Assembly: GCF_024359545.1 (NCBI RefSeq)
Contig: NZ_JAKQZG010000001.1
Coordinates: 620,001-684,000, forward strand
From: Jiella marina
Lineage (GTDB): Bacteria > Pseudomonadota > Alphaproteobacteria > Rhizobiales > Rhizobiaceae
Direction of reading: 5' to 3'
DNA: 64,000 nucleotides
This document shows, piece by piece, positions 1 through 16,689 of the stretch; the stretch's first letter is position 1, and every line of letters begins with the position of its first letter. The position numbers were made by a program, and so were the translations under genes. The notes under the pieces were generated by a model. It did not search any database, was not told the origin of the DNA, and saw only the letters and a program-made list of their open reading frames with translations.

Positions 1-528
1 AAGGGCCGGATGACCTGGCAGGTCTTCGAGGTCTCGGTGCGCCAGACGCTCGGCATCACCTGCATGTTCATGTGGATCATCCTGGCAGCACTTGCCTTCG
101 GCGCGGTGTTCGACGGCCTCGGCGCGGTCCGCGCGATCGAGAGCCTGTTCACCGAACAGCTCGGCCTGTCGCCGCTGATGATCCTGATCCTGATGCAGCT
201 GTCCTTCATCGTGATGGGGACGTTCCTCGACGATACGGCGATGCTCGTCATCGTCGCGCCGCTCTACGTGCCGCTGGTCGGCGCGCTGGGCTACGATCTC
301 GTCTGGTACGGCGTGCTCTACACGATCACCACCCAGATCGCCTACATGACGCCGCCCTTCGGCTACAACCTCTTCCTGATGCGCGCCATGTCGCCGCCCG
401 AGATCGCCATCGGCGACATCTACCGATCGATCATCCCCTTCGTCGCGGTCATGGTCGTCGCGCTCGCGATCATCATCGCCTTTCCGGAAATCGCATTGTG
501 GCTGCCGCACGCTGTCTACGGACAATGA
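1..528 (+). CDS. TRAP transporter large permease (DctM family), C-terminal part
   Basis: The 5' end lies outside the window; the frame is open from base 1 and about 175 residues are seen. The protein is strongly hydrophobic with several membrane segments. It carries the ending expected of DctM-type permeases of tripartite ATP-independent periplasmic transporters, including a segment around YMTPPFGYNLFLMRAMSPPE before the last helix. DctM forms the ion-driven channel that receives substrate from the periplasmic binding protein. The next gene, 52 bp downstream on the same strand, encodes that binding protein, so the two form an operon. The substrate cannot be told from this fragment. Confidence 0.9.
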   Translation, partial: KGRMTWQVFEVSVRQTLGITCMFMWIILAALAFGAVFDGLGAVRAIESLFTEQLGLSPLMILILMQLSFIVMGTFLDDTAMLVIVAPLYVPLVGALGYDLVWYGVLYTITTQIAYMTPPFGYNLFLMRAMSPPEIAIGDIYRSIIPFVAVMVVALAIIIAFPEIALWLPHAVYGQ

Positions 529-580
529 GCCCGGCGCCGAAAGCCCTTGTTTTCCCGCCCCCGACCAGAAGGAGAGAGGC

Positions 581-1624
581 ATGACGACCGACAGACGCAA
601 ATTCCTCATCGGAGCCGCGGCAGCGGCCCCTGCAGCGGCACTGGCAAAGCCGGCGATCGCCCAGAGCACCATCCGCTGGCGGCTGCAGACCTATGCCGGG
701 CCGGCGCTCGCCGAACACGTGATCAAGCCCGCGATCGATTCGTTCAACATGATCGCCGGCGATCGCATGCAGATCGAGCTGTTCTTTGCCGATCAGCTCG
801 TCCCGACCGGCGAACTCTTCCAGGCCATGCAACGTGGCACGATCGACGCCGTCCAGTCGGACGACGATTCCATGGCCTCGCCGACCGAAGTCACCGTGTT
901 CGGCGGCTATTTCCCGTTCGGCTGCCGCTATTCGCTCGACGTGCCCGTGCTTTTCGAGCGCTACGGGCTCAAGGAAATCTGGGAAGCCGAATACGAAAAG
1001 GTCGGCGTCAAGCACATCTCGGCCGGCGCCTGGGATCCCTGCCACTTCGCCACCAAGGAACCGATCCGCAGCCTCGCGGACCTTCAGGGCAAGCGGGTCT
1101 TCACCTTCCCGACGGCCGGCCGCTTCATGTCGCAATTTGGTGTCGTGCCGGTCACGCTCCCTTGGGAAGATGTGGAAGTCGCCCTCCAGACCGGCGAACT
1201 CGACGGCATCGCCTGGTCCGGCATCACCGAGGACTACACGGTCGGCTGGGCCGACGTGACCAACTACTTCCTGACCAACAACATTTCCGGCGCCTGGATC
1301 GGCCATTTCTTCGCGAATATGGAGCGCTGGAACGAAGTGCCGGAAGACCTTCAGGAGCTACTGAAGCTCGCCTTCGCCCAGTCCCACTACTACCGCCAGT
1401 ACTGGTACTGGGGCGGCGAAGCCTATTTGCGTGTCAATGGCGACAAGCTCGAACTCACCTCCATTCCCGACGCCGAATGGGACACGGTCGAGGAAAAGGC
1501 ACGCACTTTCTGGGACGAGATCGCCCAGGAATCGGAAACCAAGGCGAAGGTCGTCGAGATCTTCAAGAAATACAATGAGGACATGCAGAAGGCCGGACGG
1601 CCTTATCGCTACGGCCAGACCTGA
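581..1624 (+). CDS. TRAP transporter substrate-binding protein (DctP family)
   Basis: 347 residues, a normal length for a DctP-family periplasmic binding protein. The N-terminus has a twin-arginine signal (RRKFLIG at residues 5-11) followed by an alanine-rich hydrophobic stretch and cleavage near AIAQ, so export is probably by the Tat route. The mature part begins with the family's TIRWRLQTY strand and has the later LQGKRVFTFPTAGRF region that normally carries the carboxylate-binding arginine. An AGGAGAGAG-like ribosome site lies just before the ATG. It follows the large permease gene in an operon. Substrate unknown, probably an organic or keto acid. Confidence 0.92.
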   Translation: MTTDRRKFLIGAAAAAPAAALAKPAIAQSTIRWRLQTYAGPALAEHVIKPAIDSFNMIAGDRMQIELFFADQLVPTGELFQAMQRGTIDAVQSDDDSMASPTEVTVFGGYFPFGCRYSLDVPVLFERYGLKEIWEAEYEKVGVKHISAGAWDPCHFATKEPIRSLADLQGKRVFTFPTAGRFMSQFGVVPVTLPWEDVEVALQTGELDGIAWSGITEDYTVGWADVTNYFLTNNISGAWIGHFFANMERWNEVPEDLQELLKLAFAQSHYYRQYWYWGGEAYLRVNGDKLELTSIPDAEWDTVEEKARTFWDEIAQESETKAKVVEIFKKYNEDMQKAGRPYRYGQT

Positions 1625-1647
1625 CAGGTCGGCGCGCGCAGGGTGGC

Positions 1648-1678
1648 GAGCGGTGCCCGGTCCAGCCGGGCGCCGCTC
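1648..1678 (+). terminator. Strong hairpin between convergent genes, probable terminator
   Basis: A 13-bp stem (1648-1660 with 1666-1678, one G-T pair) closes a 5-base loop. It lies 24 bp after the dctP stop and is followed by AGTTTGT, a weak T-run. It overlaps the last two bases of the convergent epimerase gene, so it may end transcription from both sides. Confidence 0.6.
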
Positions 1679-2633
1679 AGTTTGTCAGGCTCGACCGAAA
1701 GTAGGCGATCGTTTCCTTCAGCCCGTCCTCCAGACCGACCTTCGGCTCCCAGCCGAGCACGTCGCGTGCCTTCGTGATGTCAGGCTGGCGCTGGCGCGGG
1801 TCGTCCGCCGGCAGGGGCCGGTAGACGATCCGCGACCCGGAATCCGTGAGGCGGAGGATTGTCTCGGCCAGTTCGGTCACCGTGCATTCGGCCGGATTGC
1901 CGAGATTGATCGGCCCGGGCACGTCCCGGCCCGTTGCCATGAACCGGACGATCGCCTCGATCAGGTCCGAAACATAGCAGAAGGAACGGGTCTGCTCGCC
2001 ATCGCCATAGATGGTGATCTCCTCGCCCTTCAGCGCCTGGACGATGAAGTTCGAGACCACGCGGCCGTCATTCGGATGCATGCGCGGCCCGTAGGTGTTG
2101 AAGATCCGCGCGACCTTCACGTCGAGACGGTGCTGGCGGTGATAATCGAAGAACAGTGTCTCGGCGCAGCGCTTGCCCTCGTCATAGCAGGAGCGCGGAC
2201 CGATCGGATTGACGTTGCCCCAATAGTCTTCCGGCTGTGGGTGGACAGTCGGATCGCCGTAGACTTCGGAAGTGGACGCCTGGAAGATCCGGGCGCGGCA
2301 GCGCTTGGCGAGCCCCAGCATGTTGATCGCGCCGTGAACGCTGGTCTTGGTCGTCTGGACGGGATCGTGCTGGTAGTGGATCGGCGAGGCGGGACAGGCG
2401 AGATTGTAGATCTGGTCCACCTCGACATAGATCGGAAAGGTCACGTCGTGACGCATCAGCTCGAAGCGCGGATCGGCGATGAGATGGGCGACGTTGCGCC
2501 GGCGGCCGGTGAAGTAGTTGTCGAGGCACAAGACCTCGCCATCTTCCTTGAGAAGGCGCTCGCAGAGATGCGAGCCAAGGAAGCCTGCACCGCCCGTCAC
2601 CAGGATCCGGCTGTCGCTCATGGGGTTTCTCAA
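1677..2633 (-). CDS. NAD-dependent SDR, UDP-glucuronate decarboxylase (UDP-xylose synthase) type
   Basis: 318 residues, an extended short-chain dehydrogenase. The NAD-binding motif GGAGFLGSH is near residue 11, the catalytic triad region contains STSEVYGDP, and the YDEGKR block gives the Tyr-x3-Lys pair. The [11 protein letters not shown] and YDEGKRCAE signatures are those of UDP-glucuronic acid decarboxylases, which convert UDP-glucuronate to UDP-xylose. It is the last gene of a tight minus-strand operon; its ATG is 6 bp after the stop of the neighbouring epimerase. In context it probably supplies an activated pentose for the large glycosyltransferase at the head of the operon. Substrate specificity is inferred. 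Confidence 0.88.
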
Positions 2634-2639
2634 CGGGCT

Positions 2640-3716
2640 CTACCGACCTTCTGACGACCACCGGCGACCTGCCGTGTCGCGGATTTCGTTCAAGGTCCAT
2701 TCGACGTCGCGCGTGACAGAAAATGTCGGATAATCCGCACGAAACCGCCCGGTGTCGCTGATCCACCAGATGTGGTCGCCGACGCGGTTCTCGTCGGAAT
2801 AGCGCCAGGCGAGATTCCGGCCGGCGATCTGCTCGGAAAGCGCGATCGCTTCGAGGATCGAACAGCTCGCGCCGCACCCGCCCCCCATATTGTAGACCTT
2901 CGCCGGAGCCGGCTTTTCCGCATAGGCCCAGATCGCCTGCATGAGATCGCCGACATGCAGATTGTCGCGCACCTGCTTGCCCTTGTAGCCGTGAACCACA
3001 TAGGGCTTTCCCGACAGGGTGCAGCGCATGAGATAGGACAGGAAGCCGTGCTGCTCGGCACCGGCATGGGCACCGCCGGTAAGGCAGCCGCAACGCAGGC
3101 ACACCGTGTTCATGCCGAAATAGCGGCCATATTCCTGCACCATTAGATCGGCCGCCAGTTTCGAAACCCCGAACAGGCTGTGGGTGGTCTGGTCGATCGA
3201 CATGGACTCGTCGATGCCATGGGCGGCGAAGGGATGATCGTCCGCGACTTCCCATCGCGTTTCGCGCTCGACGAGCGGCAGACGGTTCGGCGTGTCGCCA
3301 TAAAGCTTGTTGGTCGAGAGATAAACGAAAGCCGCCTCGGGCGCATGGTGCCTTACCGCCTCGAGAAGGTTCTGGGTCCCGCCGGCGTTGACCGCGAAAT
3401 CCGTCGCCGGATCGCTGGCTGCCCAGTCATGGGAAGGCTGTGCCGCGGCATGGACGACGAGGCTGAGATCCTGCCCCAGATCCTTGACCAGCCGGTCGAT
3501 GCCGTCCCGGTCCCTTATGTCGAGGGAAAGGCAGCGGAAGCCCTGGCGCGATCGCTCGAGCTCGCCGACCCGCCACGCGACGGAAGCCTCCGCCCCGAAA
3601 TAGCTCGCGCGCATGTCGTTCTCGATGCCGACCACATTGAGACCCTGCCTGGACAAGAATTCGACCGCTTCCGATCCGACGAGGCCGCCGCCACCCGTTA
3701 CCAGAGCAATGGACAT
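2640..3716 (-). CDS. NAD-dependent epimerase, CDP-tyvelose/paratose 2-epimerase-like
   Basis: 358 residues. The Rossmann motif TGGGGLVGSEAVEF lies at the start, and DMRASYFG follows the second strand as in CDP-tyvelose-type epimerases. STNKLYGDTPNRLPL and the SMSIDQTTHSLFGVSK block mark the active-site region. The usual SDR catalytic tyrosine of Y-x3-K is a phenylalanine here (FGVSK). I recall close relatives with the same F, so this may be a subfamily trait and not decay. The gene is 7 bp after an FGE-like gene and 6 bp before the UDP-xylose-synthase-like gene, so it is part of the operon. It probably makes a nucleotide-linked sugar for a surface glycan. Confidence 0.8.
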   Translation of the reverse strand: MSIALVTGGGGLVGSEAVEFLSRQGLNVVGIENDMRASYFGAEASVAWRVGELERSRQGFRCLSLDIRDRDGIDRLVKDLGQDLSLVVHAAAQPSHDWAASDPATDFAVNAGGTQNLLEAVRHHAPEAAFVYLSTNKLYGDTPNRLPLVERETRWEVADDHPFAAHGIDESMSIDQTTHSLFGVSKLAADLMVQEYGRYFGMNTVCLRCGCLTGGAHAGAEQHGFLSYLMRCTLSGKPYVVHGYKGKQVRDNLHVGDLMQAIWAYAEKPAPAKVYNMGGGCGASCSILEAIALSEQIAGRNLAWRYSDENRVGDHIWWISDTGRFRADYPTFSVTRDVEWTLNEIRDTAGRRWSSEGR

Positions 3717-3723
3717 CGCGTCG

Positions 3724-4518
3724 TCAATCGCGAACGACGCGGAAACCGAGCCCGCCGCTGCGCACGACGATCCGGTCGCCGAAGCTGTAGCCGACCTCGA
3801 ACTGGTTCTGCCAGATGTCGTTCCAGGCTCCGCCCCGGAAGATGGCGTTGGCGCAATCGCCTTTCAGACATGAATTCGTCCATTCCCAGCTGTTGCCATA
3901 GACGTCATAGAGGCCAAGCGCGTTGGGCTTGAAGGAACCGACAGGCGCGGTGTGCACATAGCCGTCGTCACAGCCAATATACTGCTTGGCCTGCGGATAC
4001 GGTCCCTTGAGCGACTGGTCCCCGACATTGGCGTAGAGGCAGGCCCCGTCAGCGTCGTCGCCCCAGATATATTTCGTCGTGGCGCCGGCCGAGGCGGCCG
4101 CGATCGATTCCTCGACGGATGGGAGGCGATAGAGCTGACCGGTCTTTTCCGATAGCCATTCGGCATAGGCCGTCGCATCGAGCCAGCTGACGCAGACAAC
4201 CGGATGGTCGCCGGTCTGCTCGAAACCGGGCTGGTCCCAGGTCGCTTCCTCATCCCTGAACCAGCCGGTGTCGCGCCAGCGGAAGCAGCCCTTTTCATAT
4301 GGATCCTGTGTCGCGGCGAATTCCGCGAACTGATCGCGCGTCACGGCAAATTTGGCAAAGTCCGGCCCCGAGTCCATCTTCACCATGACCGGGCAGGTTG
4401 GACAGTCCTGGTACTCTTCCACAGCATGCGCCGCCGGCAAGCCGAAGAGGAGAGCCACAAGCGCAAACGGAACCGCGCCGAAGATCCGAGCTGTCGATGC
4501 GATGTAGGGGGCAATCAT
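3724..4518 (-). CDS. Secreted FGE/SUMF1-fold protein (second copy), likely non-catalytic
   Basis: 264 residues. An N-terminal membrane-targeting segment ends near PAAHAVEEY and suggests export. The mature protein starts with a CPTCPVMV cysteine pair typical of SUMF1/EgtB/PvdO-type proteins. It continues with family landmarks: AVTRDQFAEF, HPVVCVSWLDATAYAEWLS, YRLPSVEE, GLYDVYGNSWEW, FRGGAW and a final GLGFRVVRD. The two copper-binding cysteines that true formylglycine-generating enzymes carry after the GGS/AW motif are absent. A role as sulfatase activator is therefore unlikely; ligand binding or a different activity is more probable. It is 38 bp downstream of the first FGE-like gene. Confidence 0.85.
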   Translation of the reverse strand: MIAPYIASTARIFGAVPFALVALLFGLPAAHAVEEYQDCPTCPVMVKMDSGPDFAKFAVTRDQFAEFAATQDPYEKGCFRWRDTGWFRDEEATWDQPGFEQTGDHPVVCVSWLDATAYAEWLSEKTGQLYRLPSVEESIAAASAGATTKYIWGDDADGACLYANVGDQSLKGPYPQAKQYIGCDDGYVHTAPVGSFKPNALGLYDVYGNSWEWTNSCLKGDCANAIFRGGAWNDIWQNQFEVGYSFGDRIVVRSGGLGFRVVRD

Positions 4519-4556
4519 GATCCGCTCCGGGCGATCCGCCAGTGATGTTGAGGTCG

Positions 4557-5294
4557 CTATTCGGGCCTGACGACCCGCATTCCGTAGTTGTTATAGGGCA
4601 CGTTGGCGGTGTTCGAGATCGTCTTGGAAACCCGCAGATCGGCCGGCGGGCTCGACCAACCACCCCCGACGAGAAAATGCTCCGAGCAATCGTCTTCGGC
4701 AACGCATGTGCCGGTCCAGATCCAGGCATTTCCGACCGCGTCGTAGAGGCCGAAATCGTTTGGCGGGAAGGTCGAGACAGGAGACGTGCCCTTGCCGTCG
4801 TATGGCGAGCCGCAGACCACGCAATTGGCGCGGTTCTTGCCGACGCTGCGGCCCCACCAATAGCTGTCCGGGCTGTTGGCGAGCGCCGCATAGCGCATCT
4901 CGCTCAAGCTGGGCAGGCGGTAGGCCCGGCCGGTCTTCTTCGCCAGCCAGTCGGCGTAGGCGGACGCATCCTCGAAGGTCAGGCAGACGGCAGGATGGTC
5001 CGGCTCCTGCTCGATATGGGCGTAATCCCAGTTGCAACCCCAGCCGCCACGCCCGTAGCCGGTTTCGGCCGCGAAGACGCGAAACTCCTCAAGCGTGATC
5101 GGAGCGCGGCTGATGAACAGCCCGCTCGGCAGCTGCACGAGTTCGGGACATTCGGCGCAGTCGCGGGCTTCGACGGTTTCGGGTGCGGGGAGGATGAGTT
5201 GGGAGTGAGCGACATCGCTGTCGGCAATAGTGCCGAGCAGCGCGGCGATGAAAACGCACGCAAACACGCGGATATTCTCGGGCAACGCCGTCAT
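4557..5294 (-). CDS. Secreted FGE/SUMF1-fold protein (first copy), likely non-catalytic
   Basis: 245 residues from the ATG at 5294, which lies 13 bp after the caspase gene's stop. A longer reading frame to 5495 overlaps that gene and encodes arginine-rich sequence, so I reject it. A signal peptide (residues 1 to about 31, ending near DVAHSQ) precedes the ARDCAECPELVQLPSGLF start that parallels the second copy. Landmarks are HPAVCLTFEDASAYADWLA, YRLPSLSE, GLYDAVGNAWIW, GGGW and YGMRVVRPE. As in its neighbour, the catalytic cysteines of formylglycine-generating enzymes are missing. Proteins of this fold are often fused to or encoded beside caspase-like proteases, as seen here. Confidence 0.85.
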   Translation of the reverse strand: MTALPENIRVFACVFIAALLGTIADSDVAHSQLILPAPETVEARDCAECPELVQLPSGLFISRAPITLEEFRVFAAETGYGRGGWGCNWDYAHIEQEPDHPAVCLTFEDASAYADWLAKKTGRAYRLPSLSEMRYAALANSPDSYWWGRSVGKNRANCVVCGSPYDGKGTSPVSTFPPNDFGLYDAVGNAWIWTGTCVAEDDCSEHFLVGGGWSSPPADLRVSKTISNTANVPYNNYGMRVVRPE

Positions 5295-5307
5295 GCGTCC
5301 CCTGCCC

Positions 5308-7443
5308 TCACAAGGCCCGCAGCGCCCGCGCGGCCGGCTCGATCCCGGCTGCCGCGGCCTCGCGGAGAAGCCCCCGCGCCTTCTCGACATCCTTTCCGCC
5401 GCCGAGGCCATCGCGATACAGAAGTCCGAGATTGGCCTTGGCGTAGGGGTTACCCTGCCCGGCCGCCAGTTCCAACCAGAGCCGCGCAAGCCCATAATCC
5501 TGCTCGATGCCGAAACCTTCCGCCAGCATGGTGCCGATGCCCGTCTGGGCGAAATCGTCCCCCGCGGAGGCCGCTTCGAACAGAAGGTTCAAGGTCTGCT
5601 GGGCCGTCAGCACGCCACTTTGCTCGGAACTGATCGAGGCCTGATACTGGCGGATGGCGCGCCGCGTGCGCCCGTCGAGAATGCCGTTGACCTCGCCGAC
5701 AGGGAACCCCAGCGACACCAGCCCGTACTGGACGAACTGGACCGGGAGCCGGTCATATTGCGCCATGGCCTTGGCGCGAAGCTGCGCGCGGGTCAGGAAT
5801 TCGTTCTTGTCGGCCCCGAAATAATCCTTCACCTCACCGGAGCGCTCCAGGGCCTGCAGGCGTTCGGAGGCGAGATCGGTGTATTTGCCCCGGGGATAGA
5901 GCCGCTGATAGGTTGCAAAATCGGCAGCCATCGTGCTGTCGCGGATCGTCTGCCAGTAGAGCGTCTCGAAATCCGGAGGCGCTGCCGGCGTATTATCGGC
6001 AATCGCTGCCGGTACGGGGGCATCGAGCTTTGCCAAAAGCTCGTCCGCGAGTTCGCCATAGGCGCTGGCAGGGTGAGCGCGCTTGAACGCCTCGAAAGCC
6101 CCGCTCGTGCCTTGGCGGAGAGCCGCCTCGAAGGCCTGGCGTTCTGCCGAAACCCTAAGGGCGTCCGCGTTCACGACGGCAGCCTTGTCGATCGTCTCGA
6201 GATAAGTCTCGGCAAGTTCGGCGAACTGACCGCCGGGATAATCGCGAAGGTAGCCGTTCAGCGCCTCCTTCGAGCCCAGGCGCAGCGCTTCCTGCCAAGA
6301 GGCCAGTTCCTGGTCACCCAGCGCGCGAGCCGTCGACTGGCGCTTCATCTCCTCGATCGACGCGATGCGAGCGGCGGCGATGTCGTCGAAGGCGCTGCCC
6401 GGAAAGCGCTGGCGGAAGGCCTCGATCGCAGCCACGTCGCGGCTCTGGCTGAGTTCGTTCCATGCCCGCAGCGCCTGGTTCTCGGCCTCGATCGCCGCGG
6501 CAATCCGCTGCTGGCGTTCGCGGTCGGCATCATCGCGCACGAAGAAGAAGCGGCCGATCAGCGAATTGCGCTCCCAGGGAAGCTGCGAGCCCTTGGTGGT
6601 CACGTAGACGTCCTCGCGCACGTCGTCCATCATCAGGCGGATGTCCGTGTTGGGCGTGCCGATGTGCTTGAGGAGCGCCGTGGTGAACGGGCTGTTCCGA
6701 CCCGTTCCATCGAGCGCGACATGGCCGGGCGCGGTCGAATAGGCGAGATAGGTCCCGGTCGCGATCTCCTGCGGCGCGAGCCCTTGCTCGCCGCCCGTCG
6801 AACGCGTCTTGCCGCCGCGGACGGCGAAGCGGCGCGACAGCGGATTGTCACGGCAGGCGTCGAGAAAGACGATGCTCGTCTCCGTCATCCGCTCCATGAG
6901 TTCGAGAACGCGCTCGATGGCAATCGCTTCGATGTCGAGATCCGATGTCCGCTCGATATCGGCGTCGATCGGGATCGCATAGTTCTCGTCATTCGCCTGG
7001 ATGCCATGGCCGGCATAGAAAAATAGCGAGACCTTCGCATTCTCCATGTTGCGCACGAACTCGCGCATCTTGTCGCGAAACGCGCTGTGGCCGACATCAA
7101 TCCCGAGCGTCACCTCGAAACCGATCGATTCGAGCTTGGCGGCAAGGTCACGCGCATCATTGGCGGGATTGGGAAGTGCATTGATATCTGAATAGGCGCC
7201 ATTGCCGATCACGAGAGCGACACGCCGCTGCCCCTCCGAGGCCAGCGAGGTCTGCGCCACGGCAAGCACCACTAAAACGCCGGTGCAAAGAGCCGCCACG
7301 TGCTTCAGAGCCGCCCGCGGCAGAACGGGCGAGCGGCTTGGGAACAACGACCGGAAGCCGCCGCGAAGCCGCGGCCAGAGCGAAGAGGTTGCGGCCCTGA
7401 TCGGGGCGATGACTTTGTGCATGGCAGCAGAACTATCAGTCAT
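5308..7443 (-). CDS. Secreted caspase-like (C14) protease with peptidoglycan-binding and SEL1 modules
   Basis: 711 residues. A hydrophobic export segment lies around residues 49-69, ending near SLASEG. The caspase p20 fold follows at about 73-310, with catalytic His146 in FFYAGHG and Cys197 in FLDACRDNP, both intact. A long alpha-helical middle contains repeated motifs of the type ‘AFRQRFPGSAFDDIA’, ‘YLRDYPGGQFAELAE’ and ‘YQRLYPRGKYTDLASE’. At about 562-627 there is a peptidoglycan-binding-like domain (GEVNGILDGRTRRAIRQYQ), then SEL1 repeats at about 628-700. The protein probably works at the cell envelope. It begins 18 bp after the giant transferase gene and is followed at 13 bp by an FGE-fold gene, so it is the centre of the operon. 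Its substrate is unknown. Confidence 0.88.
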   Translation of the reverse strand: MTDSSAAMHKVIAPIRAATSSLWPRLRGGFRSLFPSRSPVLPRAALKHVAALCTGVLVVLAVAQTSLASEGQRRVALVIGNGAYSDINALPNPANDARDLAAKLESIGFEVTLGIDVGHSAFRDKMREFVRNMENAKVSLFFYAGHGIQANDENYAIPIDADIERTSDLDIEAIAIERVLELMERMTETSIVFLDACRDNPLSRRFAVRGGKTRSTGGEQGLAPQEIATGTYLAYSTAPGHVALDGTGRNSPFTTALLKHIGTPNTDIRLMMDDVREDVYVTTKGSQLPWERNSLIGRFFFVRDDADRERQQRIAAAIEAENQALRAWNELSQSRDVAAIEAFRQRFPGSAFDDIAAARIASIEEMKRQSTARALGDQELASWQEALRLGSKEALNGYLRDYPGGQFAELAETYLETIDKAAVVNADALRVSAERQAFEAALRQGTSGAFEAFKRAHPASAYGELADELLAKLDAPVPAAIADNTPAAPPDFETLYWQTIRDSTMAADFATYQRLYPRGKYTDLASERLQALERSGEVKDYFGADKNEFLTRAQLRAKAMAQYDRLPVQFVQYGLVSLGFPVGEVNGILDGRTRRAIRQYQASISSEQSGVLTAQQTLNLLFEAASAGDDFAQTGIGTMLAEGFGIEQDYGLARLWLELAAGQGNPYAKANLGLLYRDGLGGGKDVEKARGLLREAAAAGIEPAARALRAL

Positions 7444-7461
7444 CGAGTAAAACTCCTCCCG

Positions 7462-10400
7462 TTACCGACGAGCTTTCGAAAGGAGGCGGTCGAGTTTCGA
7501 ACTTACGAAGCGGTATATTTCATAGTCAAGAGCATGATTTTGTGCAAACACCGTGATCGCTTCATCGCAAGAGACTTCATCACGCAGCGAAACATTGGCG
7601 CGCGGCAAGACATCTGGAAGTTGAAGCCCCATGACCTTCGCCAGATGTATCAGGCATTCGTCCAGACGCTCCTGGGTTCCGATGAACCAGTACCGGTCCA
7701 GCGCCTCGCGCCAATCGGTCTCGGCACAACCGAAGTGGTCGGCCAGGCCTCCCTCGTACACCCGGAGATAATCCGAAAGGCTTTCAGCCCGAAACGCCGG
7801 ATCCTGACGGCGGTGATGCTTCTGGTAGAAATAATCCGAGATCGCGCGCTCGAGCGGGTCGCGAACGAAGGTGAAAACGCGCCAGTCCGGACTGGCCAGA
7901 ATTTCAGGATAGCGCCGCCAGAGTCGCATCTCCTCTGGCGCGTCGAAATGCCCGCATAGAAGCTGGCGAGGAGTGAGCATGTCCAGGTCCTTCCGCTCGG
8001 GCGCCACATCGGACCAAGGCTCGCGATAATCATAGACGATCTCGAAGCCACTCTTCAGCGCTTGTGTGACGCTCGTTCCACCCGTCTTGGGAAGATGATG
8101 GAAAAGGTAGAGCGGTTGGCGTTGTCGCGGCGCAGGTCTTCGTTGCCGTGCCGGAACGCCGGCTTCTTCGGCAATGGTCTCCAGCCACCAACCGAAGCGC
8201 TTGCCAAAAACCCTGGGATCGTGGAGCGCTTCGTGAGATGCGACTGCATCGGCAACCTCGCGCCGCGCATTGTCGCGCGCCTCCGCCGAGGAGAGCAGCA
8301 TGCAGGCGGTTTCGACATAGGCTTCGGCCGTTTCCGCCGCATAGGACGAAAGCCCGTGGGCGTCGAGCCATCCCGCACCCTGCAGACCCCTCTGCGTCGT
8401 CCCGCGCAACGCCACGACCGGAAGGCTCGCGCGCAAAGCCTCGACCACCGTCGTCGCGCCCGCATAAGCGAAGCTGTCGAGATAGAGATCGGCAGCCAGC
8501 AGCAGCCGGATCACGTCGGCATGGGAGATCGTGTCGAGGATGAGTATGCGGTCTTCGCCAAGCCCGGCACCTGCAAGATGCCGCGAGACATCGGCGCGGA
8601 ATTCGTCACTCCACCGCGTCCCGGCCCAGTTCGCTGCGAAGGGATAGAGGACGAGAACCGCGCCGGGCGTTCGGCTCAGGATTTCGATCCAGCTTGAGAG
8701 AAGCGGCTCGCCGATCTTCTCCGCCATCGCACCGCTGACGGCGAGCGTTCGATCGAGCGGCACGCCGAGCCGGCGCCGCAGGATCGCCCGGTTGGTGCCG
8801 GGGTCTGTGAGGATGCTTTCGGTCTCGGGGCTGAAGGCGAAGCACTGGGCCGGTTCGTCCCAGAGCGTCAGGCGCTCGGTGTAGTGCTCGGCCGCGTCCG
8901 GCGGCTCGCAGAGGCGGGAGGAAAGCGCGTGAGCGACCGAGGGCAGACCGCTGCTCGCCGGGCTGACCCCGCTCGTGATCAACTGCACAGGCGCCAGTCG
9001 ATGGGCGAAGACATGGTTGATGTCACTGTATCCGCAGGTGAAGCTGCCGAGCGCCACGATGTGATGCCGGGCATTCTGGATCGCGACCGGCAGATGGTCG
9101 ATCGGCATGCCGGAGATGTCGACCACGCGCGCGAAGGTCTGGCTGGCTTCCTCCAGTCGAGGGCCCGACGCGTCAGTGTAGACGGTGACGGCGAATCTGT
9201 CGGGATCGAGACCACCAAACATGCCGAAAAGCAGAGCTGCTTCCGGCGAATCCGCGAGATTGCGAAGAATGACTCCCACGCTCAAGCGGCCATCATTGCC
9301 CGCCCGCCGCAGTTCAGGCAGCGGAGGAGTGAAGACGTCGACGCCCGACATCAGAAGCAACGTCGCTTCCGCACGTCCATAGGCCGCAACGAAAGGCCGG
9401 AGATTGGCGTCTCCGAACAGCAAAGGACGCCCCGCCATGTGCCGGAGCACGGATCTGACAAACCGGAACCCGGCACTATCGGGCGGACAGGCCAGCAGTC
9501 GGGCTCGGACAGCTTCGACCAGAGCCAGCAGATAGTCCATGAAGGCCCGTTGATCGGCGGGCGCACGGAGGATGCCGCCAGGCGCCGTGAGATAGGCGGC
9601 GAAGGGATCGGGTTCGAGAATGAGGATCTCGGGAATGCCCGCGAGCGCGCTTGGATCGAAGCACCGCCAGGCGGGACCGGAGAGGATGGCCGAAAACAGC
9701 ATGCGCAGACGGAGCTCTACCGGGTCGTCCGGTGAGTGCGAAAACCAGCGCCCCCCCGCCGCGGCGCGTTCACTCGAAGCTGATGCGAGCGCCAGTAAGC
9801 GTCGGATGATCTGCGCATCGCTGGCGAGAGCCCGGATCGCCCCTGCGCTCAACCCGGCCAATTCAGCCTGGTAATCCCCTGCGGCCGATCCATGCGCCGG
9901 GTCTGACAATTCGTCCTGGCCCACCGCCCCCAGGGTCACCAATAGAGAGCCGCTCGACGAAGTCTGGCGAACATGGGCGCCTGCCAGTTCGACAGACCCG
10001 AGAGGTGCATTTCCCTTCGGGCGCATCCCAGCAGATGCCAGCTCCGCGCGTTGTCCCTCCTCGATCAGCACAGGTTGCAGTTCGAGCCAGTTGAAGATGA
10101 GGCCCGACGGAAACGGCTCGGCTTCCGGCCCTGCGATGATTAGCCCGGCGAAGAGTTCGATCTGGATTTCGCGCCCATGAACCGTCTCGGGCATGTCGAG
10201 AGAAAGCTCGACATGCTCGCCGACAAAATCCTCGAAGACACGCTCGTCGCCGATCTCAATGGCCAGAAGAGGCCGGCCCGCCGCCAGGCGCTCGGGCGGA
10301 ATGTCGACGGAGAGGTGAACGCGCACGTGTCCGGTTTCGCCGAGTGCCCGCCGCAGGACGATCGCGCCCATCAATCCGGCCAACGTGACGGCCCCATCCT

Positions 10401-12453
10401 CGGCCCGCAGCCAGCCCTCGATGAAGTGGCGCTCGAACTGCCGCTCATCCTTTCCGGTCAGCCGGGCGCCGAGAGCAAGCGGCCAGGCCCCCTCCTCGTC
10501 CGACCAGCCGACGAACATCCGGCCGCCATAGGCCGCGCCGGCAAAGCCGAGGGAGTCGATCGCGAGCGTCTGCTTTGATGCAGCCGGCGCGTCGATTTCC
10601 TGGAAATTCACGAGAAGGTCGATGGCGAGCGGCGTTTCGCGGGCTCGGTCTGCAGGCAGAAGCGCGAAGCGGATCGTGCCACCAGGTAGCGCCGTCCCGT
10701 CGAACACGAGATCGCCTTCCTGGAAGATGTTGAGCCAGGCCGGCGGCTGATCCTGCCTGAAGCGGATGGCGAGATCCGGCGGCCTCGCCATGTCGGGCGG
10801 CACCACCGAAAGCGTGGCAGGCGAGGACGAAAGCACACAGCCGCCAGAGCCGGTATCGTCGGCTTCGGCAGAGATCGAAGGGCCGATCGCGTCGAAGGGC
10901 ACCATCGCGTTCATGGAAAGCGTCTTGGCGGGCTGGGGCTTTGCGGCCGGAAGCACTTCCAGCGCATCGAGCGTCACGATCCCTGGCTGCTGGCCGAGAC
11001 GTTTCAGCGATCTGGCAAATGAACCGAAGAGCGGCTCCACCCGCAATTCGAGATCAAGGCTCCGGGGCTCGAGCAGCATCGAGGACGGCACCGTCATTTC
11101 GATCGCGGTGCGGCCGGAGAACTCGCGAGACGCCATCGCGACGCCGTCCTGCAAGAGGATCGCGCGCAGACCCTCCTCCTTGGCCCAGGCCAGTGCTCGC
11201 AGTTCCAATCGGACGAGCAGCGGTTGATGGCTGGCCGGAAGGGCGATCGTGATCGCCGCGTCGCGGCCGCGTGTGACGAAGCCGCTTTCATAGGCCGAGA
11301 AATGCCAATCCACAGCGGGAAGCAAACGGTAAAGCCGCACCTGGTCCCGCTCGGCTTCCAGCCGTCCGATGACCGGCTCGGCTTGGCGCAGTCGTTCAGC
11401 GCTTCGCATCAGCCCCCTGAGCCGCCGCCCCAGAACCGCATGGACGAAATCGTCAAGGAACGCGCTGCGCGACTCGCGGAAACGCACCCGCTCGGCCAGT
11501 CTGCGGTTCACCCGGTCGCTGATCCCGAGCGGCGCCAGGGCCGTCAGAACCCGCCATCGCACTGGTGGAAGACCGCGTCGCTCGGACAGACCTCGGAGAA
11601 TGGCGCGAACGGCCTGCGCCGATCCGCCGAAATTGTCGGCGACCAAGGCCCGCCACAAGGTGAGTTTTACCGCCTGGATCGCAAAGGCAAGCCTCACGGA
11701 TGCCGGATCGGGATGCGTGGCCGGGGGCGCGTCGAAGGCGAGGTAGCGCGATGCGAGCGCCATGTGCCGAAGCGCTCGCTCCTCCACGAGCCGATCCGAG
11801 AGACCCGAAGTGAAATAGTTGTTGGCGCCGTGAACCCGGTACGCGCCGAGTTCTTGGGGCAGGACCCGCGTCTTGCCCGAAAGGGTCGCCAGCCGGATGA
11901 GCAGGGCATCGGTGGAGATCGGCCAGTCCGCCGCCGGGATCGGGAACGCAGGCGCGATCGCCGACCGGCGAAACGCGTTGCCCGAGGTCGGATAGTGCGC
12001 GATCGTTCCGCGCGCGATCAGCGGCGGAAGGTTGTCGCCATCGATCGTCACCTCGCGATAGGCGCCGACGGTCTTGCCGAAGCTGTCGATCAGGCTCAGC
12101 GGGAAAGAGAGCATGGCAAGGTCGTGCGACCATGCCAGCGCCAGTGTCTCCAGTGCGTGGGGATAGAGCCTGTCGTCGGCGTCGAGGAAGAGCACGACCT
12201 CGCCGGTCGTAGCTGCGAAGCCGACATTGATCGCGCCCGTCTGCCCCCAATTCGAGAGCCGAATGACCTTGAGCGAACCATTGCGCTCATAACCATCAAG
12301 CACTGCACCGGAACTATCCGTCGAACCGTCATCGACGACGATCAGTTCTGCAGCGGGCACCGTCTGCCCGAGAACGCTCTCGATGCACTCCGAAAGAAAA
12401 TGCCCGTAATTATAGTTCGTGACAACGACAGAAAACTGCAGGCGCGTACTCAA
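7462..12453 (-). CDS. Trifunctional GT2 glycosyltransferase / SPINDLY-type GT41 / sulfotransferase fusion
   Basis: 1663 residues. Residues 1 to about 300 are a family 2 glycosyltransferase: VVVTNYNYGHFL, DDGSTD at 41-46 and the metal-site DADD at 91-94. About 370-1050 is poorly conserved sequence with beta-rich, possibly carbohydrate-binding segments. About 1058-1430 resembles the C-terminal catalytic part of SPINDLY/O-GlcNAc transferases, including YLDSFAYAGATTVVEALRAS. The C-terminus (1447-1663) is a sulfotransferase with the 5' PAPS loop PKTGGTS (1455-1461) and the 3'-phosphate motif FVRDPLERAISDYF (1529-1542). One polypeptide could thus elongate a glycan and sulfate it. It leads the operon with the caspase, FGE-fold and nucleotide-sugar genes. 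No signal peptide is seen, so it is likely cytoplasmic. Confidence 0.87.
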   Translation of the reverse strand: MSTRLQFSVVVTNYNYGHFLSECIESVLGQTVPAAELIVVDDGSTDSSGAVLDGYERNGSLKVIRLSNWGQTGAINVGFAATTGEVVLFLDADDRLYPHALETLALAWSHDLAMLSFPLSLIDSFGKTVGAYREVTIDGDNLPPLIARGTIAHYPTSGNAFRRSAIAPAFPIPAADWPISTDALLIRLATLSGKTRVLPQELGAYRVHGANNYFTSGLSDRLVEERALRHMALASRYLAFDAPPATHPDPASVRLAFAIQAVKLTLWRALVADNFGGSAQAVRAILRGLSERRGLPPVRWRVLTALAPLGISDRVNRRLAERVRFRESRSAFLDDFVHAVLGRRLRGLMRSAERLRQAEPVIGRLEAERDQVRLYRLLPAVDWHFSAYESGFVTRGRDAAITIALPASHQPLLVRLELRALAWAKEEGLRAILLQDGVAMASREFSGRTAIEMTVPSSMLLEPRSLDLELRVEPLFGSFARSLKRLGQQPGIVTLDALEVLPAAKPQPAKTLSMNAMVPFDAIGPSISAEADDTGSGGCVLSSSPATLSVVPPDMARPPDLAIRFRQDQPPAWLNIFQEGDLVFDGTALPGGTIRFALLPADRARETPLAIDLLVNFQEIDAPAASKQTLAIDSLGFAGAAYGGRMFVGWSDEEGAWPLALGARLTGKDERQFERHFIEGWLRAEDGAVTLAGLMGAIVLRRALGETGHVRVHLSVDIPPERLAAGRPLLAIEIGDERVFEDFVGEHVELSLDMPETVHGREIQIELFAGLIIAGPEAEPFPSGLIFNWLELQPVLIEEGQRAELASAGMRPKGNAPLGSVELAGAHVRQTSSSGSLLVTLGAVGQDELSDPAHGSAAGDYQAELAGLSAGAIRALASDAQIIRRLLALASASSERAAAGGRWFSHSPDDPVELRLRMLFSAILSGPAWRCFDPSALAGIPEILILEPDPFAAYLTAPGGILRAPADQRAFMDYLLALVEAVRARLLACPPDSAGFRFVRSVLRHMAGRPLLFGDANLRPFVAAYGRAEATLLLMSGVDVFTPPLPELRRAGNDGRLSVGVILRNLADSPEAALLFGMFGGLDPDRFAVTVYTDASGPRLEEASQTFARVVDISGMPIDHLPVAIQNARHHIVALGSFTCGYSDINHVFAHRLAPVQLITSGVSPASSGLPSVAHALSSRLCEPPDAAEHYTERLTLWDEPAQCFAFSPETESILTDPGTNRAILRRRLGVPLDRTLAVSGAMAEKIGEPLLSSWIEILSRTPGAVLVLYPFAANWAGTRWSDEFRADVSRHLAGAGLGEDRILILDTISHADVIRLLLAADLYLDSFAYAGATTVVEALRASLPVVALRGTTQRGLQGAGWLDAHGLSSYAAETAEAYVETACMLLSSAEARDNARREVADAVASHEALHDPRVFGKRFGWWLETIAEEAGVPARQRRPAPRQRQPLYLFHHLPKTGGTSVTQALKSGFEIVYDYREPWSDVAPERKDLDMLTPRQLLCGHFDAPEEMRLWRRYPEILASPDWRVFTFVRDPLERAISDYFYQKHHRRQDPAFRAESLSDYLRVYEGGLADHFGCAETDWREALDRYWFIGTQERLDECLIHLAKVMGLQLPDVLPRANVSLRDEVSCDEAITVFAQNHALDYEIYRFVSSKLDRLLSKARR

Positions 12454-12487
12454 GACACAGAAGCTGGAATATCGATATTGCCTCCAC

Positions 12488-12697
12488 TCAGTATTGCGAG
12501 CGGAAACGCTCCATCACATTCTGTCTCTGGTTTGCCCTCTTTCGCGACTGCTCCTCGAAATCCTCGCGCGGCGTCTGAATGCGATAGGGCTGGCGAACCT
12601 CCTCCTGTTGCTCAGCCGTTGTCGTGCAGGCGCTTCCCGCCAGCAGCGAGGTACAGGCGGCCAGCAGTACTTTGGCATTGCGCGATTTCGGCGGCAT
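12488..12697 (-). CDS. Small putative lipoprotein
   Basis: 69 residues with a basic start, a short hydrophobic stretch and a lipobox-like LLAGSAC, giving a predicted acylated cysteine near residue 23. The remaining 45 residues are charged and rich in Q, E and R, and end in MERFRSQY. It lies 34 bp upstream of the giant transferase gene on the same strand, so it may be the first gene of the operon or an independent gene. The family is not recognised. Confidence rests on the lipobox and the position. Confidence 0.55.
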   Translation of the reverse strand: MPPKSRNAKVLLAACTSLLAGSACTTTAEQQEEVRQPYRIQTPREDFEEQSRKRANQRQNVMERFRSQY

Positions 12698-12964
12698 GGA
12701 GAACTCCCAGATAGCCGGCGAAAAATACGGCTAACCCAACGGAAGTGTCAATGCTCTTTAGTCCACGCGTGAAGGACTGATCGTGGCGCACAGTCCGCGC
12801 CCTCGCCGACTCGCACACCTCGAGAGTGAAGACGCGAAAAAAGTGTTTCAAGAAAAGACGCTGCGGGCGATGCCGCTATCAAAATCCGAACTCGAAGCTC
12901 GAACCTGCTCCCATTCGCCCGCAAGACGAGGCTGGCAAACGTTCGGTCCTTCCCTCAGGAAGAC

Positions 12965-13039
12965 TGGAGCGGGCGATGGGGATCGAACCCACGACATCAA
13001 GCTTGGGAAGCTTGCGTTCTACCACTGAACTACACCCGC
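12965..13039 (-). tRNA. tRNA-Gly (anticodon CCC)
   Basis: The 75-nt minus-strand sequence folds as a full cloverleaf: acceptor GCGGGTG with CGCCCGC (one G-T pair), D-loop AGTGGTA, anticodon stem CAAGC/GCTTG around loop TTCCCAA (anticodon CCC), T-loop TTCGATC, and an encoded 3' CCA. It reads GGG codons as glycine. Confidence 0.96.
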
Positions 13040-13119
13040 GACCGAACCGGACATTGCCGCCGGACGGCGCGAGCGTCAAGCGCTATTCTCCGGGCACGGG
13101 CGTTATTGCCCCGACCCCA

Positions 13120-13761
13120 TTACGCCTTGCCGAGAGCAGCCGCTTCGCGGGCCAGCGCCTCGATGCCTGCCCAGTCTTCGGCCGCGACCTTGTCCTTCGG
13201 CGCGAGCCACGAGCCGCCAACGCAGAGCACGTTCGGCAGCGCCAGGTAGTCGCCGACATTCTTTGTCGAGATGCCGCCGGTCGGACAGAACTTCAGGGAG
13301 GGGATGACCGGCGCGAGGGACTTGAGGAGCGCCGCTCCGCCGATCTGCTCGGCGGGGAAGAATTTCAGGATCTCGTAGCCTTCCTGCAGCATCGCCATCA
13401 TCTCGCTCGGCGTCGCCGAACCGGGAAGAAGCGGGATATCGCTGTCGCGCGCCGCGTCGAGAATCTCCACCGTCGCGCCCGGCGAGACGATGAACTGCGC
13501 TCCGGCTGTCTCGGCGGCCTCGAACTGCTTCGGCGAGAGGATCGTGCCAGCCCCGCAGATCGCCTCGGGGACCTCGCTTCGGATGGCCTTGATGGCCTCG
13601 AGGGCGGCCGGCGTCCTGAGCGTCACCTCGATCGAGCGGATCCCACCGGCCGCAAGCGCCCGGGCAAGCGAAACACCCGCGGCCGCGCTTTCGACGGCGA
13701 CCACGGGCACGACCGGCTGCGCCGTCAGGATCTGATGGAGTTTCTTGGTGTCTTGAGCCAT
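13120..13761 (-). CDS. eda: 2-dehydro-3-deoxyphosphogluconate (KDPG) aldolase
   Basis: 213 residues, the normal family length. It cleaves KDPG to pyruvate and glyceraldehyde-3-phosphate in the Entner-Doudoroff pathway and often also handles 4-hydroxy-2-oxoglutarate. Key residues fall at the same numbers as in the E. coli enzyme: Glu45 and Arg49 in IEVTLRT and the Schiff-base Lys133 in ILKFFPAEQ. The phosphate-binding CPTGGIS segment follows. The gene stands alone between tRNA-Gly and the SleB hydrolase; edd is not in the window. Confidence 0.95.
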   Translation of the reverse strand: MAQDTKKLHQILTAQPVVPVVAVESAAAGVSLARALAAGGIRSIEVTLRTPAALEAIKAIRSEVPEAICGAGTILSPKQFEAAETAGAQFIVSPGATVEILDAARDSDIPLLPGSATPSEMMAMLQEGYEILKFFPAEQIGGAALLKSLAPVIPSLKFCPTGGISTKNVGDYLALPNVLCVGGSWLAPKDKVAAEDWAGIEALAREAAALGKA

Positions 13762-13954
13762 GGTCCCTGCCCGCCGCGATTTCTCGATTCGGGCAAAGAC
13801 TTAGACGATCGCGTACCGGGCTGGAAAGCCGTTCGGAGAAAATTCCGCCGCCACTTGCCGCTCAAGGGGCAAGTTCCAAGCACGGCCTCGCCGGATATCC
13901 GCCGAGACCCCATGAACTCCGCACCGATGGCGGGCAGAGGCCGTTTCTACAGCC

Positions 13955-15154
13955 TCACATTCCGCCGTTGTAGGTGCGGTAGAAGATGTGGCGGCCGATC
14001 TTGTCGACCCGCTCCATCGCCCGTGCCCAGCGGGGGCTCACGTAATTGGCGTGGTAATGCGTAGCCGATCCGACTTCGGCGAGCCAGATTTCACCGTTTG
14101 TGACCTTGTCGGCGATCTTCTTGGCCCGTGAATAGGACCCAGCGTCGCGGATGCGGTCCTTCGCGCCGTCGCAGGCGAAGGAGAACTGACAGCGATTGCG
14201 CCAATTCTTGTTCTGATAGACGACGCCGCAGATCGTATTCGGATAGGCGGGATTGCGGACCCGGTTCAGGATGACCTGGGCAACCGCCGCCTGCCCTTCC
14301 GAGGACTCGCCGCGTGCCTCGAAATAGATGCCATTGGCGAGGCATTTCTGTTCGGCCTTGCTGTAGGCTTTTTCCGGCAGAGGCGTCGCGGCCCAGGCGT
14401 GATCCTTCTCCGAAATCGGCGGAATGAAGACTTCCGGCTGATCCTTCAGCACCCGCTCGAACATCGAGGAGGCACGCCCGGTCGCAGAGGATTCCGACGG
14501 CGCGTAGCCGAGGGCATTCGTGTCGTCGACCGAAGGCTTCAGGGATGCAAGCATCACCTTGTCTTCAACCTTGAGCTTGCGGTTCTTCGGCGTCTCGAAC
14601 CTCGGCGGTCCCTGGAGCTGAAAGCTCATCGCCAGTGCGACGGAGTCCTTGGTCGATTGCTCGACCTTGGAGAAGGCGTTGCGAATGCGCGCCTCGCCAC
14701 CCGCGACCCGCGACCCGAGAAGGCTTTGCCGATCGAGGATCGAACCCGCCGAGAAGCCGCGCGGGGGCATGCTTCCATTCAGGCGTTCGGCGACCACGCG
14801 TCCAGACTTGGCCGTGCGGACGATCCGCGGCTCGTCGCCTTCGGCGATCTGAGCCATGCGCTTGGCAAACCGTTCGGCCGCCTCGCGAGCGGCGATCTTC
14901 TTCGCACCCTCGTCTGCCGAATAGGCAAGATCGGCGATCGTGATGCCGCCCGAAGAGGCCGGAACGAGGAAGGCATGCCAACGCTCGATCTTGTGAACCC
15001 CACCAACGAAGCTCGTCATGTCCTGATAGGCGGCCCGCGTGGCGCTTGTCCCCACAAGCACCGTGCCCGCCAACATGATCACCCCTATCCGACCGGCCAT
15101 ACGACCTAGACGACGTCGCCCACGGCCGACAGCCGCTCGCCCCTCATCCGTCAT
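13955..15154 (-). CDS. Cell wall hydrolase, SleB (Hydrolase_2) family
   Basis: About 399 residues from the ATG at 15154 (a GTG lies one codon earlier). A hydrophobic segment around residues 20-40 suggests export or anchoring. The C-terminal 130 residues are a SleB-type catalytic domain: KCLANGIYFEARGES with the catalytic Glu, then GQAAVAQVILNRVRNPAYP, NRCQFSFACDG and ATHYHANYVSPRW. Enzymes of this family cut peptidoglycan; in alphaproteobacteria, which do not sporulate, they are thought to act in wall remodelling. The long middle part is low in recognisable domains. The preceding gene on the same strand is der. Confidence 0.9.
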   Translation of the reverse strand: MTDEGRAAVGRGRRRLGRMAGRIGVIMLAGTVLVGTSATRAAYQDMTSFVGGVHKIERWHAFLVPASSGGITIADLAYSADEGAKKIAAREAAERFAKRMAQIAEGDEPRIVRTAKSGRVVAERLNGSMPPRGFSAGSILDRQSLLGSRVAGGEARIRNAFSKVEQSTKDSVALAMSFQLQGPPRFETPKNRKLKVEDKVMLASLKPSVDDTNALGYAPSESSATGRASSMFERVLKDQPEVFIPPISEKDHAWAATPLPEKAYSKAEQKCLANGIYFEARGESSEGQAAVAQVILNRVRNPAYPNTICGVVYQNKNWRNRCQFSFACDGAKDRIRDAGSYSRAKKIADKVTNGEIWLAEVGSATHYHANYVSPRWARAMERVDKIGRHIFYRTYNGGM

Positions 15155-15210
15155 CACGCCCCCAATTGCGTGTTACAAACTTTCCACAGATGCCTAGAAA
15201 ACATCCCCCA

Positions 15211-15231
15211 TTAACCTTGTCTTTTGGTTAA
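15211..15231. promoter_or_regulatory. TTAACC/GGTTAA inverted repeat upstream of the SleB gene
   Basis: TTAACC at 15211-15216 and GGTTAA at 15226-15231 form an inverted repeat in the 90-bp gap between der and the hydrolase gene. The arms resemble half-sites of the alphaproteobacterial cell-cycle regulator CtrA, but the spacing is not the standard TTAA-N7-TTAA. It could instead be a weak der terminator. Confidence 0.3.
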
Positions 15232-15246
15232 GGAATTTTGGTGATT

Positions 15247-16689
15247 TCAAGACGACCGCTTGCGTTTTCCGGCAAATGGGTTCTGAGGCTTGCGCAGGGC
15301 TAACCTGATCGGCACGCCGAAGAACCCGAATTGCTCGCGTAAACCGTTGACGAGGTAGCGCGTATAGCTTGCGCCAAGCGCTTCGGGACGCGCCGTGGAG
15401 ATGATGAAAGTCGGTGGTCGCGACTTGATTTGCGTCATATACTTGACGTTAACCCGTCGTCCGGCGACCGCCGGCGGCGGATGTTTTGCCACCATCCCCT
15501 CAAGCCATTGATTCAATTTGGCGGTGGCGATTCGGCGGTTCCATACCTCATGGGTCTCGGTCACCGCGCGCATCAGGCGGTCGATCCCCTCGCCCGTCTC
15601 GCCCGACACCGTGATCGCCTTGATGCCACGTACCTGCGGCAGGAGACGGTCGGTCTTTTCGCGCAGATCCGCCAGAAGCTGCTGGCGATCCTCGACGAGG
15701 TCCCATTTGTTGAAGGCGATGACCGGCGCCCGGCCTTCTCGGACGATCAGATCGACGATCGACAGGTCCTGACGTTCGAACGGTATGGTGACGTCGAAGA
15801 TGATGACCACCACCTCGGCAAAGCGGATGGCCCGCAGACCATCGGCGACCGAGAGCTTTTCGAGCTTCTCCTGAACGCGGGATTTCCGGCGCATGCCGGC
15901 CGTGTCGAACACCTTGATCAACCGGTCCCGCCACTGCCATTCGACCGAGATCGAATCCCGTGTGATGCCGGCCTCCGGCCCCGTCAGCAGGCGGTCTTCA
16001 CCGAGGAAGCGGTTGATGAGGGTGGACTTGCCGGCGTTGGGCCGGCCGACGATCGCCATGCGTAGCGGTTTCGTCGGGTCGTAGGCCGGTTCTTCCTCCT
16101 CCTCGTCAGCAGGCGGCAGGGCTGACAATTCGGCGTCGGTTTCCTCCGACCCATCTTCGCCGCCGCGTCGCGGCCGGGGCTCGGGACGGAAGGCGTTCCG
16201 GCCAAGAGCCTCGACCATGGCATCGCGCAGTTCGCCCATCCCCTCGCCATGCTCGGCGGAAATCCCCACAGGCTCGCCGAGACCGATTGCATAGGCATCG
16301 AGAAGCCCCGCGTCGGAACCCCGCGCCTCCGCTTTGTTGGCAACGAGGACGACGTGCCGGGCCGACTTGCGCAGCAGATCCGCAAAGTCGTGATCCTGGG
16401 GCGTCAGGCCGCTCTTCACGTCGATCATGAAGAGACAGAGATCGGCTTCTTTGATCGCGGCCTCCGTCTGGGCCCGCATGCGACCTTCCAGAGTATCGGC
16501 GCCGGCCTCCTCCAGGCCCGCCGTATCGACGATGGAAAAGGTCAGGTCCATGAGCCGGCCGTCGCCGAGCCGCCGGTCGCGGGTCACGCCCGGCTGGTCG
16601 TCGACGAGGGCAAGCCGACGCCCGACCAGCCGGTTGAACAGGGTCGATTTTCCGACATTCGGTCGACCGATGATAGCGATGGTGACCAT
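15247..16689 (-). CDS. der: Ribosome-assembly GTPase Der (EngA)
   Basis: 480 residues with the tandem GTPase domains that define Der. The first has [20 protein letters not shown] and NKAE. The second has [21 protein letters not shown] and NKWD. A KH-like C-terminal domain follows and ends in a basic KRKRSS tail. The linker between the domains is unusually acidic (a run of E and D around residues 180-205). Der acts in 50S subunit maturation and is normally essential. It lies 38 bp after the TPR gene, probably co-transcribed. Confidence 0.97.

Follow-up and report, generated by a model that had tools for sequence, protein, structure and literature searches.

What would bring a caspase-like protease, two proteins of the formylglycine-generating enzyme (FGE) fold, a fused glycosyl- and sulfotransferase and two nucleotide-sugar enzymes together in one gene cluster, and could they act on a common substrate? 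The question is raised by a 64,000-nucleotide stretch of the Jiella marina genome, called the window here (contig NZ_JAKQZG010000001.1, positions 620,001 to 684,000), in which six minus-strand open reading frames (ORFs) occupy positions 1677-12453 with gaps of 18, 13, 38, 7 and 6 bp in transcription order. An earlier note had described these six genes and gaps, and the coordinates match; it overlooked a seventh ORF on the minus strand at 12488-12697, upstream of the fusion gene. The association goes beyond chance, since five further genomes carry the same gene set. We propose, at a probability of roughly 0.4, that it is an accessory cluster that makes and processes one glycosylated envelope component (a glycan or a glycoprotein) and includes a periplasmic caspase-FGE processing or sensing module. 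The gene order in the window is LP-fusion-caspase-FGE1-FGE2-SDR1-SDR2, where LP is the small lipoprotein-like ORF and SDR denotes a short-chain dehydrogenase/reductase, and the features are as follows.

12722-12751, minus strand: sigma-70-like site (TTGACA, 18 nt, TATTTT), directly upstream of the small ORF
12488-12697, minus strand: LP, small secreted lipoprotein-like ORF of 69 aa, assigned by position and type
7462-12453, minus strand: fusion of GT2, a beta-rich middle, GT41 and sulfotransferase, 1663 aa, TTG start (Pfam, fold)
11464-12453, minus strand: GT2 part of the fusion, about residues 1-330 (Pfam; boundary approximate)
8221-9750, minus strand: GT41 part of the fusion (Pfam, OGT profile match)
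7465-8220, minus strand: sulfotransferase part of the fusion (Pfam Sulfotransfer_2, model, Foldseek)
5308-7443, minus strand: caspase (C14) with PG_binding_1 and Sel1 and a secretion-type N-terminus (Pfam)
4557-5294, minus strand: FGE1, FGE fold without the C-terminal cysteines (Pfam; ATG at 5294, longest ORF to 5495)
3724-4518, minus strand: FGE2, second FGE fold without the C-terminal cysteines (Pfam)
2640-3716, minus strand: SDR1, CDP-tyvelose-2-epimerase-like (best PDB match)
1677-2633, minus strand: SDR2, UDP-glucuronate decarboxylase (UDP-xylose synthase) type (best PDB match)

If SDR2 begins at an internal ATG at 2621, the last gap becomes 18 bp instead of 6.

Recurrence of the gene set

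Co-occurrence of these genes elsewhere had been set by the earlier note as a refutation test; with the search now run, the set is found as a cluster in six genomes, namely that of the window (G000), four others (G032, G043, G235 and G423) and an Actibacterium genome (locus L011), with gene order and strand differing among them. Caspase, FGE1 and FGE2 are present in all six (the G043 caspase only in part), each time with a GT2-type or GT41-sulfotransferase protein, and at least one SDR accompanies them in five. The order is SDR2-caspase-FGE1-FGE2-LP-GT2 protein in G032, where the GT2 protein (1190 aa) lacks the GT41 C-half and the sulfotransferase. In G235, a divergent SDR2 is followed by LP-GT2 protein-caspase-FGE1-FGE2, and G423 carries SDR1-caspase-FGE1-FGE2-LP-GT2 protein (1227 aa) and then a full fusion (1632 aa). 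The Actibacterium cluster reads LP-fusion-caspase-FGE1-FGE2, and G043 holds the C-terminal part of the caspase and FGE1, with FGE2 on the opposite strand, SDR1 and the GT41-sulfotransferase end of a fusion. The G032 GT2 protein (L017:13057-16629) was also seen to stop inside the GT41 region.

These clusters were reached by different queries. The fusion identified three of 151 family genomes (G000, G032 and G043), and a fusion search of genome contigs returned five related loci, two of them full-length and in one Actibacterium genome (L009 and L011) and three matching the GT2 part only; the GT2-only loci (L010, L012 and L013) hold no caspase or FGE gene. FGE2 alone picked out three of 297 order genomes (the window genome, G235 and G423), and G235 and G423, retrieved in this way, were then seen to hold the caspase, FGE1, a GT2 protein and an SDR. 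Actibacterium is a member of Rhodobacterales and so likely, although this is unproven, belongs to another order than the window genome. Seven other genomes of the class with FGE2 matches of 6.6e-41 to 9.9e-50 served as controls, and the GT2 protein, an FGE1-clade protein and the cluster were found in none of the seven, an absence that is partial for two short contigs (G444, 9.1 kb; G539, 6.7 kb). One control, G452, encodes a caspase-FGE fusion protein (L090:7538-9739). The window genome has two further caspase-domain matches, and neither has such neighbours within 16-17 kb.

Proteins encoded by the cluster

The fusion starts with a GT2 domain (Pfam, 3.9e-28 over residues 8-115) and contains a GT41 domain (Pfam, 3.1e-14), the GT-B domain of which matched OGT structures at 1.4e-33 and SPINDLY at 2.4e-33 in profile searches. 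An equivalent of OGT Lys842, a residue whose role is addressed in PMC3660302, is present in three of five fusions (window, G043 and G423). No TPR family was detected before the catalytic domain, as judged by Pfam at E 0.001 over the fusion, and the beta-rich middle was modelled poorly (mean pLDDT 54.6 for the GT2-beta structure). The sulfotransferase part was undetected in a whole-protein Pfam scan; the excised segment scored 23.3 bits against the 22-bit cut-off of Sulfotransfer_2, and its predicted model had a pLDDT of 83.1. The 50 Foldseek matches listed were sulfotransferases or retinol dehydratases, with modest TM scores of 0.34-0.52 by query. K, R and S segments are invariant in all five sequences, and we take the conserved K and R/S segments to bind the sulfate donor 3'-phosphoadenosine-5'-phosphosulfate. 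As far as the predicted model goes, the sulfotransferase fold of the fusion is real, and the GT2-GT41-sulfotransferase architecture named in the earlier note is thus borne out by Pfam for the first two parts and by the excised-segment score and the fold for the third.

The window caspase has a Peptidase_C14 domain (Pfam, 9.7e-41) together with PG_binding_1 and Sel1. Its His/Cys dyad is intact (GHG and DACR) in all five readable clusters; among these five caspases, C14 and Sel1 exceed their cut-offs in every case and PG_binding_1 in four, falling below the cut-off in G032. The G043 caspase is a C-terminal part only, cut before the C14 domain. The caspase and FGE1 frames overlap stop/start in G032, G423 and L011, and the caspase and FGE proteins have N-termini that, judged by eye, are of secretion type, in keeping with their earlier description as secreted.

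Both window FGE proteins match the FGE-sulfatase family (Pfam, 1.1e-30 and 1.9e-37). No cysteine lies behind the last GGxW-type motif in any of the 12 FGE1 and FGE2 proteins of the six clusters, which agrees with their having been called degenerate; this C-terminal segment is presumably the position of the catalytic cysteine pair in formylglycine-generating enzymes. Because the C-terminal cysteines are missing in 12 of 12, canonical formylglycine formation by FGE1 and FGE2 appears unlikely. An extra CxxC is present in all six FGE1 proteins, possibly as a metal or disulfide site, and absent from all six FGE2 proteins. The nearest solved relative of FGE1 is PvdO (3.5e-33 in a PDB profile search, the DCxxCPE segment included), and the NCBIfam PvdO family is the top family for both proteins, at 97.4 and 95.0 bits where the cut-off is 500. 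The FGE1 (6 rows, support 100/99) and FGE2 (6 rows, 100/97) sequences fall into separate clades of a 20-protein FGE tree, with one member of each per cluster. Window FGE1 groups with Actibacterium FGE1 at 80/94, a placement that hints at, and does not decide, horizontal spread of the cluster. As a separate observation, G607 (L092:8987-11235) encodes two adjacent FGE-fold proteins with no caspase or GT2 fusion nearby.

The sugar enzymes were named earlier as tyvelose-epimerase-like and UDP-xylose-synthase-like, and their best PDB matches back both names; Pfam likewise places the two proteins among the SDRs. SDR1 matched CDP-tyvelose 2-epimerase (3.8e-37 and 6.9e-36), and SDR2 matched UDP-glucuronate decarboxylase 1 (6.4e-126; 423 bits to 2b69) with the SEVYGD and YxxxK segments aligned. 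Two nucleotide-sugar dehydrogenases score over the cut-off in the window genome and could plausibly provide UDP-glucuronate for SDR2.

In the window, 34 nt separate the end of the small ORF from the start of the fusion. The ATG of the small ORF is preceded by GGAG, and its product has a hydrophobic, cysteine-containing N-terminus and ends with a Tyr. A small secreted-type ORF also precedes the GT2 gene in G032 (85 aa), G235 (143 aa), G423 (132 aa) and Actibacterium L011 (138 aa), so that one is present in all five readable clusters, G043 being unreadable at this point since its 6.3-kb contig cuts the fusion; an ORF of 308 aa precedes the fusion of L009, where there is no cluster. The small ORFs of G235, G423, L011 and L009 are alike (of the six pairs, five have E between 1e-8 and 1e-26, and G423-L009 has only 0.019), and that of G032 shares with L011 a 20-aa signal segment only (6e-5). 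Each of the five short forms has a Tyr among its three C-terminal residues and after its final Arg or Lys, a feature that was spotted post hoc. A relation of the small ORF to the caspase repeats is not claimed (best E 0.006).

Proposed function and its rivals

In the proposed mechanism, the GT2 protein, which in the window also carries GT41 and a sulfotransferase-fold domain, would build or attach a sugar in the cytoplasm, and the linked SDRs would supply activated sugars. In the periplasm, the caspase, with its intact dyad and its peptidoglycan-binding domain, would cleave or survey the exported product, while the two FGE-fold proteins would partner it by binding rather than catalysing; the small lipoprotein-like product is the leading candidate for the client or anchor. 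We infer the localisation from N-termini read by eye, and the substrate, the cleavage and the role of the small protein are likewise put forward as a proposal. An envelope-glycan setting is favoured by the Wzy_C (O-antigen ligase), Poly_export and Wzz genes that adjoin the G032 cluster, the cluster for which flanks were annotated in this way, those of the others not having been annotated systematically. The data suggest an unrecognised route by which a cell-surface component would be modified and processed.

Several findings weigh against this proposal. The GT41-sulfotransferase part is present in four of the six clusters and absent from G032 and G235, and the Lys842 equivalent is lost in both Actibacterium fusions. 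Neither SDR lies beside the Actibacterium L011 cluster in the stretch read, and both SDRs are found together in one cluster of six, that of the window. The same Actibacterium genome has, at L009, a fusion and a small ORF but neither caspase nor FGE. Across clusters, component identities show no positive correlation worth claiming (for GT2 versus FGE1, r was even -0.75, over unequal alignment lengths). In sequence comparison the small ORF of the window has no detectable similarity to the other small ORFs, so that its assignment rests on position and type instead of homology. Despite the sulfotransferase fold, APS kinase was not found in the window genome, as searched with one model (TIGR00455) in a 99% complete draft; this model exceeds its cut-off in only six of 14 control genomes. 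Because APS kinase is needed for making the sulfate donor, its absence from the search results argues against sulfation in the window host, which we regard as doubtful. TIGR00455 was found in G032, G235 and G423, of which only G423 carries the sulfotransferase part. The earlier interpretation therefore stands in part, with the idea of one pathway that includes sulfation weakened: the genes belong together, as the six clusters indicate, whereas the GT41-sulfotransferase part and the SDRs are patchy and no APS kinase was found. Beside the L009 fusion (9941-14734), a 305-aa protein follows (14786-15703); it matched no Pfam family at 0.001 and showed no relation to the GT2-beta region (E 1.3).

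Among the rivals, the one that survives best is a stress or cell-death module, in which the caspase and FGE proteins would detect damage to or an attack on the envelope and set off proteolysis, and the glycosyltransferases would merely decorate them or the surface. Bacterial caspases have been tied to stress and death, according to PMC4933709, and the intact dyad and the patchy distribution fit such a role; PADLOC, however, recognised a generic caspase only, no nucleotide-sensing or effector domain was seen by Pfam, and sugar enzymes recur in the clusters. We consider this explanation unlikely, about half as probable as the envelope proposal.

Siderophore- or cofactor-like maturation would have FGE1 and FGE2 act as PvdO-like enzymes on a small periplasmic product, with the caspase maturing them or the product. 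PvdO is the best PDB match of FGE1 and gives the top NCBIfam family for both proteins, but the scores lie far under the cut-off and no nonribosomal peptide synthetase or other pyoverdine-type gene is present among the cluster genes, leaving this explanation improbable. For orthocaspases as a family, PMC6426788 gives cleavage after Arg or Lys. In a narrower version of the envelope proposal, the small ORF would be a precursor, its tail behind the last Arg or Lys decorated by the transferases and released by the caspase in the periplasm with the FGE proteins docking, to yield a modified surface or signal peptide; to this specific scheme we attach only a slim chance. An ordinary surface-polysaccharide locus, in which transferases and SDRs would contribute to an exopolysaccharide while caspase and FGE genes lie nearby by chance, would suit the exopolysaccharide cluster beside the G032 cluster and the GT2 and UDP-xylose-synthase genes usual in such loci, but is disfavoured by recurrence (caspase, FGE1 and FGE2 with a transferase in six of six clusters, the FGE clades separate) and has little probability.

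Known systems, distribution and genomic setting

The pairing of caspase and FGE domains in one protein is already known, as PMC3501461, PMC5756287 and PMC6426788 indicate, and the first of these reports FGE-sulfatase in 4.9% (33) of prokaryotic metacaspase sequences. Orthocaspase-FGE fusions, such as that of G452, resemble the window cluster in joining a caspase domain with an FGE-fold domain, whereas in the cluster the FGE is split off, doubled into two clades and accompanied by GT2/GT41/sulfotransferase, SDRs and a small secreted ORF. With the GT41 protein glycosyltransferases (OGT, SPINDLY and HMW1C-like) the window fusion has the GT-B domain match and the Lys842 equivalent in common; it differs in having no Pfam TPR and in being joined to GT2 and a sulfotransferase, and the Actibacterium fusions also lack the Lys. 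PvdO, the closest solved relative of FGE1, shares the DCxxCPE segment, whereas the window FGE proteins remain far under its NCBIfam cut-off and the cluster lacks pyoverdine-type genes. PorK/GldK of the type IX secretion ring is likewise a secreted FGE-fold protein (PDB match 4.1e-14), whereas the window proteins score 35.5 and 53.9 bits against its cut-off of 350.

No described system with this gene set was met in the literature searched, most subscription journals being outside its coverage. The caspase-FGE kind is known; what is apparently undescribed is the recurring cluster in which a split, doubled FGE is joined by GT2/GT41/sulfotransferase, SDRs and the small secreted ORF. Bacteria widely encode secreted caspases with FGE-fold partners, but we know of no settled substrate for these proteases. 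A compact, recurring cluster that places such a caspase beside glycosyltransferases, enzymes of sugar-nucleotide synthesis and a small possible client would allow its substrate, localisation and partners to be studied in a single strain, and would connect a protease of the caspase type with glycosylation of the bacterial surface.

The cluster is rare and patchily distributed. At 1e-60, FGE1 was found in 3 of 374 family genomes, 1 of 8 genus, 1 of 385 class and 1 of 299 phylum genomes, and at 1e-45 in 1 of 5 genomes of the G235 family and 1 of 20 of the G423 family; these are lower bounds from overlapping samples, each including its centring genome, and the larger searches scored only the best candidates per genome. 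In stretches fetched from seven same-genus relatives (L079-L085), KDPG aldolase is present in seven of seven, tRNA-Gly in six and the cluster genes in none. The DNA beyond tRNA-Gly(CCC) (window 12965-13039) differs between the window and these relatives, and this flank may be a variable site. An island at tRNA-Gly was considered and rejected, as searches of the window and L022 revealed no further copy of the tRNA 3' end and no repeat was seen at the tRNA in 1-14000. A plasmid link was also rejected, going by sequence identity: the best value was 34.9% for FGE1 (16 records), below the 41-58% within the FGE1 set, and 43.0% over 54% of the query for FGE2 (21 records). Phage matches (10 records) were to FGE proteins of Microcystis phages, which are only distantly similar, and viral contigs (27 loci) reached 37% identity at most; going by these matches, both links were set aside, as was a defence system (PDLC02987, the generic caspase hit, 3.8e-10; none for the other seven proteins scanned by PADLOC).

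GC content across the cluster stretch is 0.59-0.67, like much of the window. The sigma-70-like site at 12722-12751 is a possible operon promoter, a weak candidate given one such site in 1300-13100 against 2.0 expected by chance. On the other side, TRAP transporter genes at window 10-1624 converge on the cluster, and G423 has a weakly similar DctP-type protein (L029:9480-10523, 1e-17) some 6 kb away from its SDR1, probably by chance.

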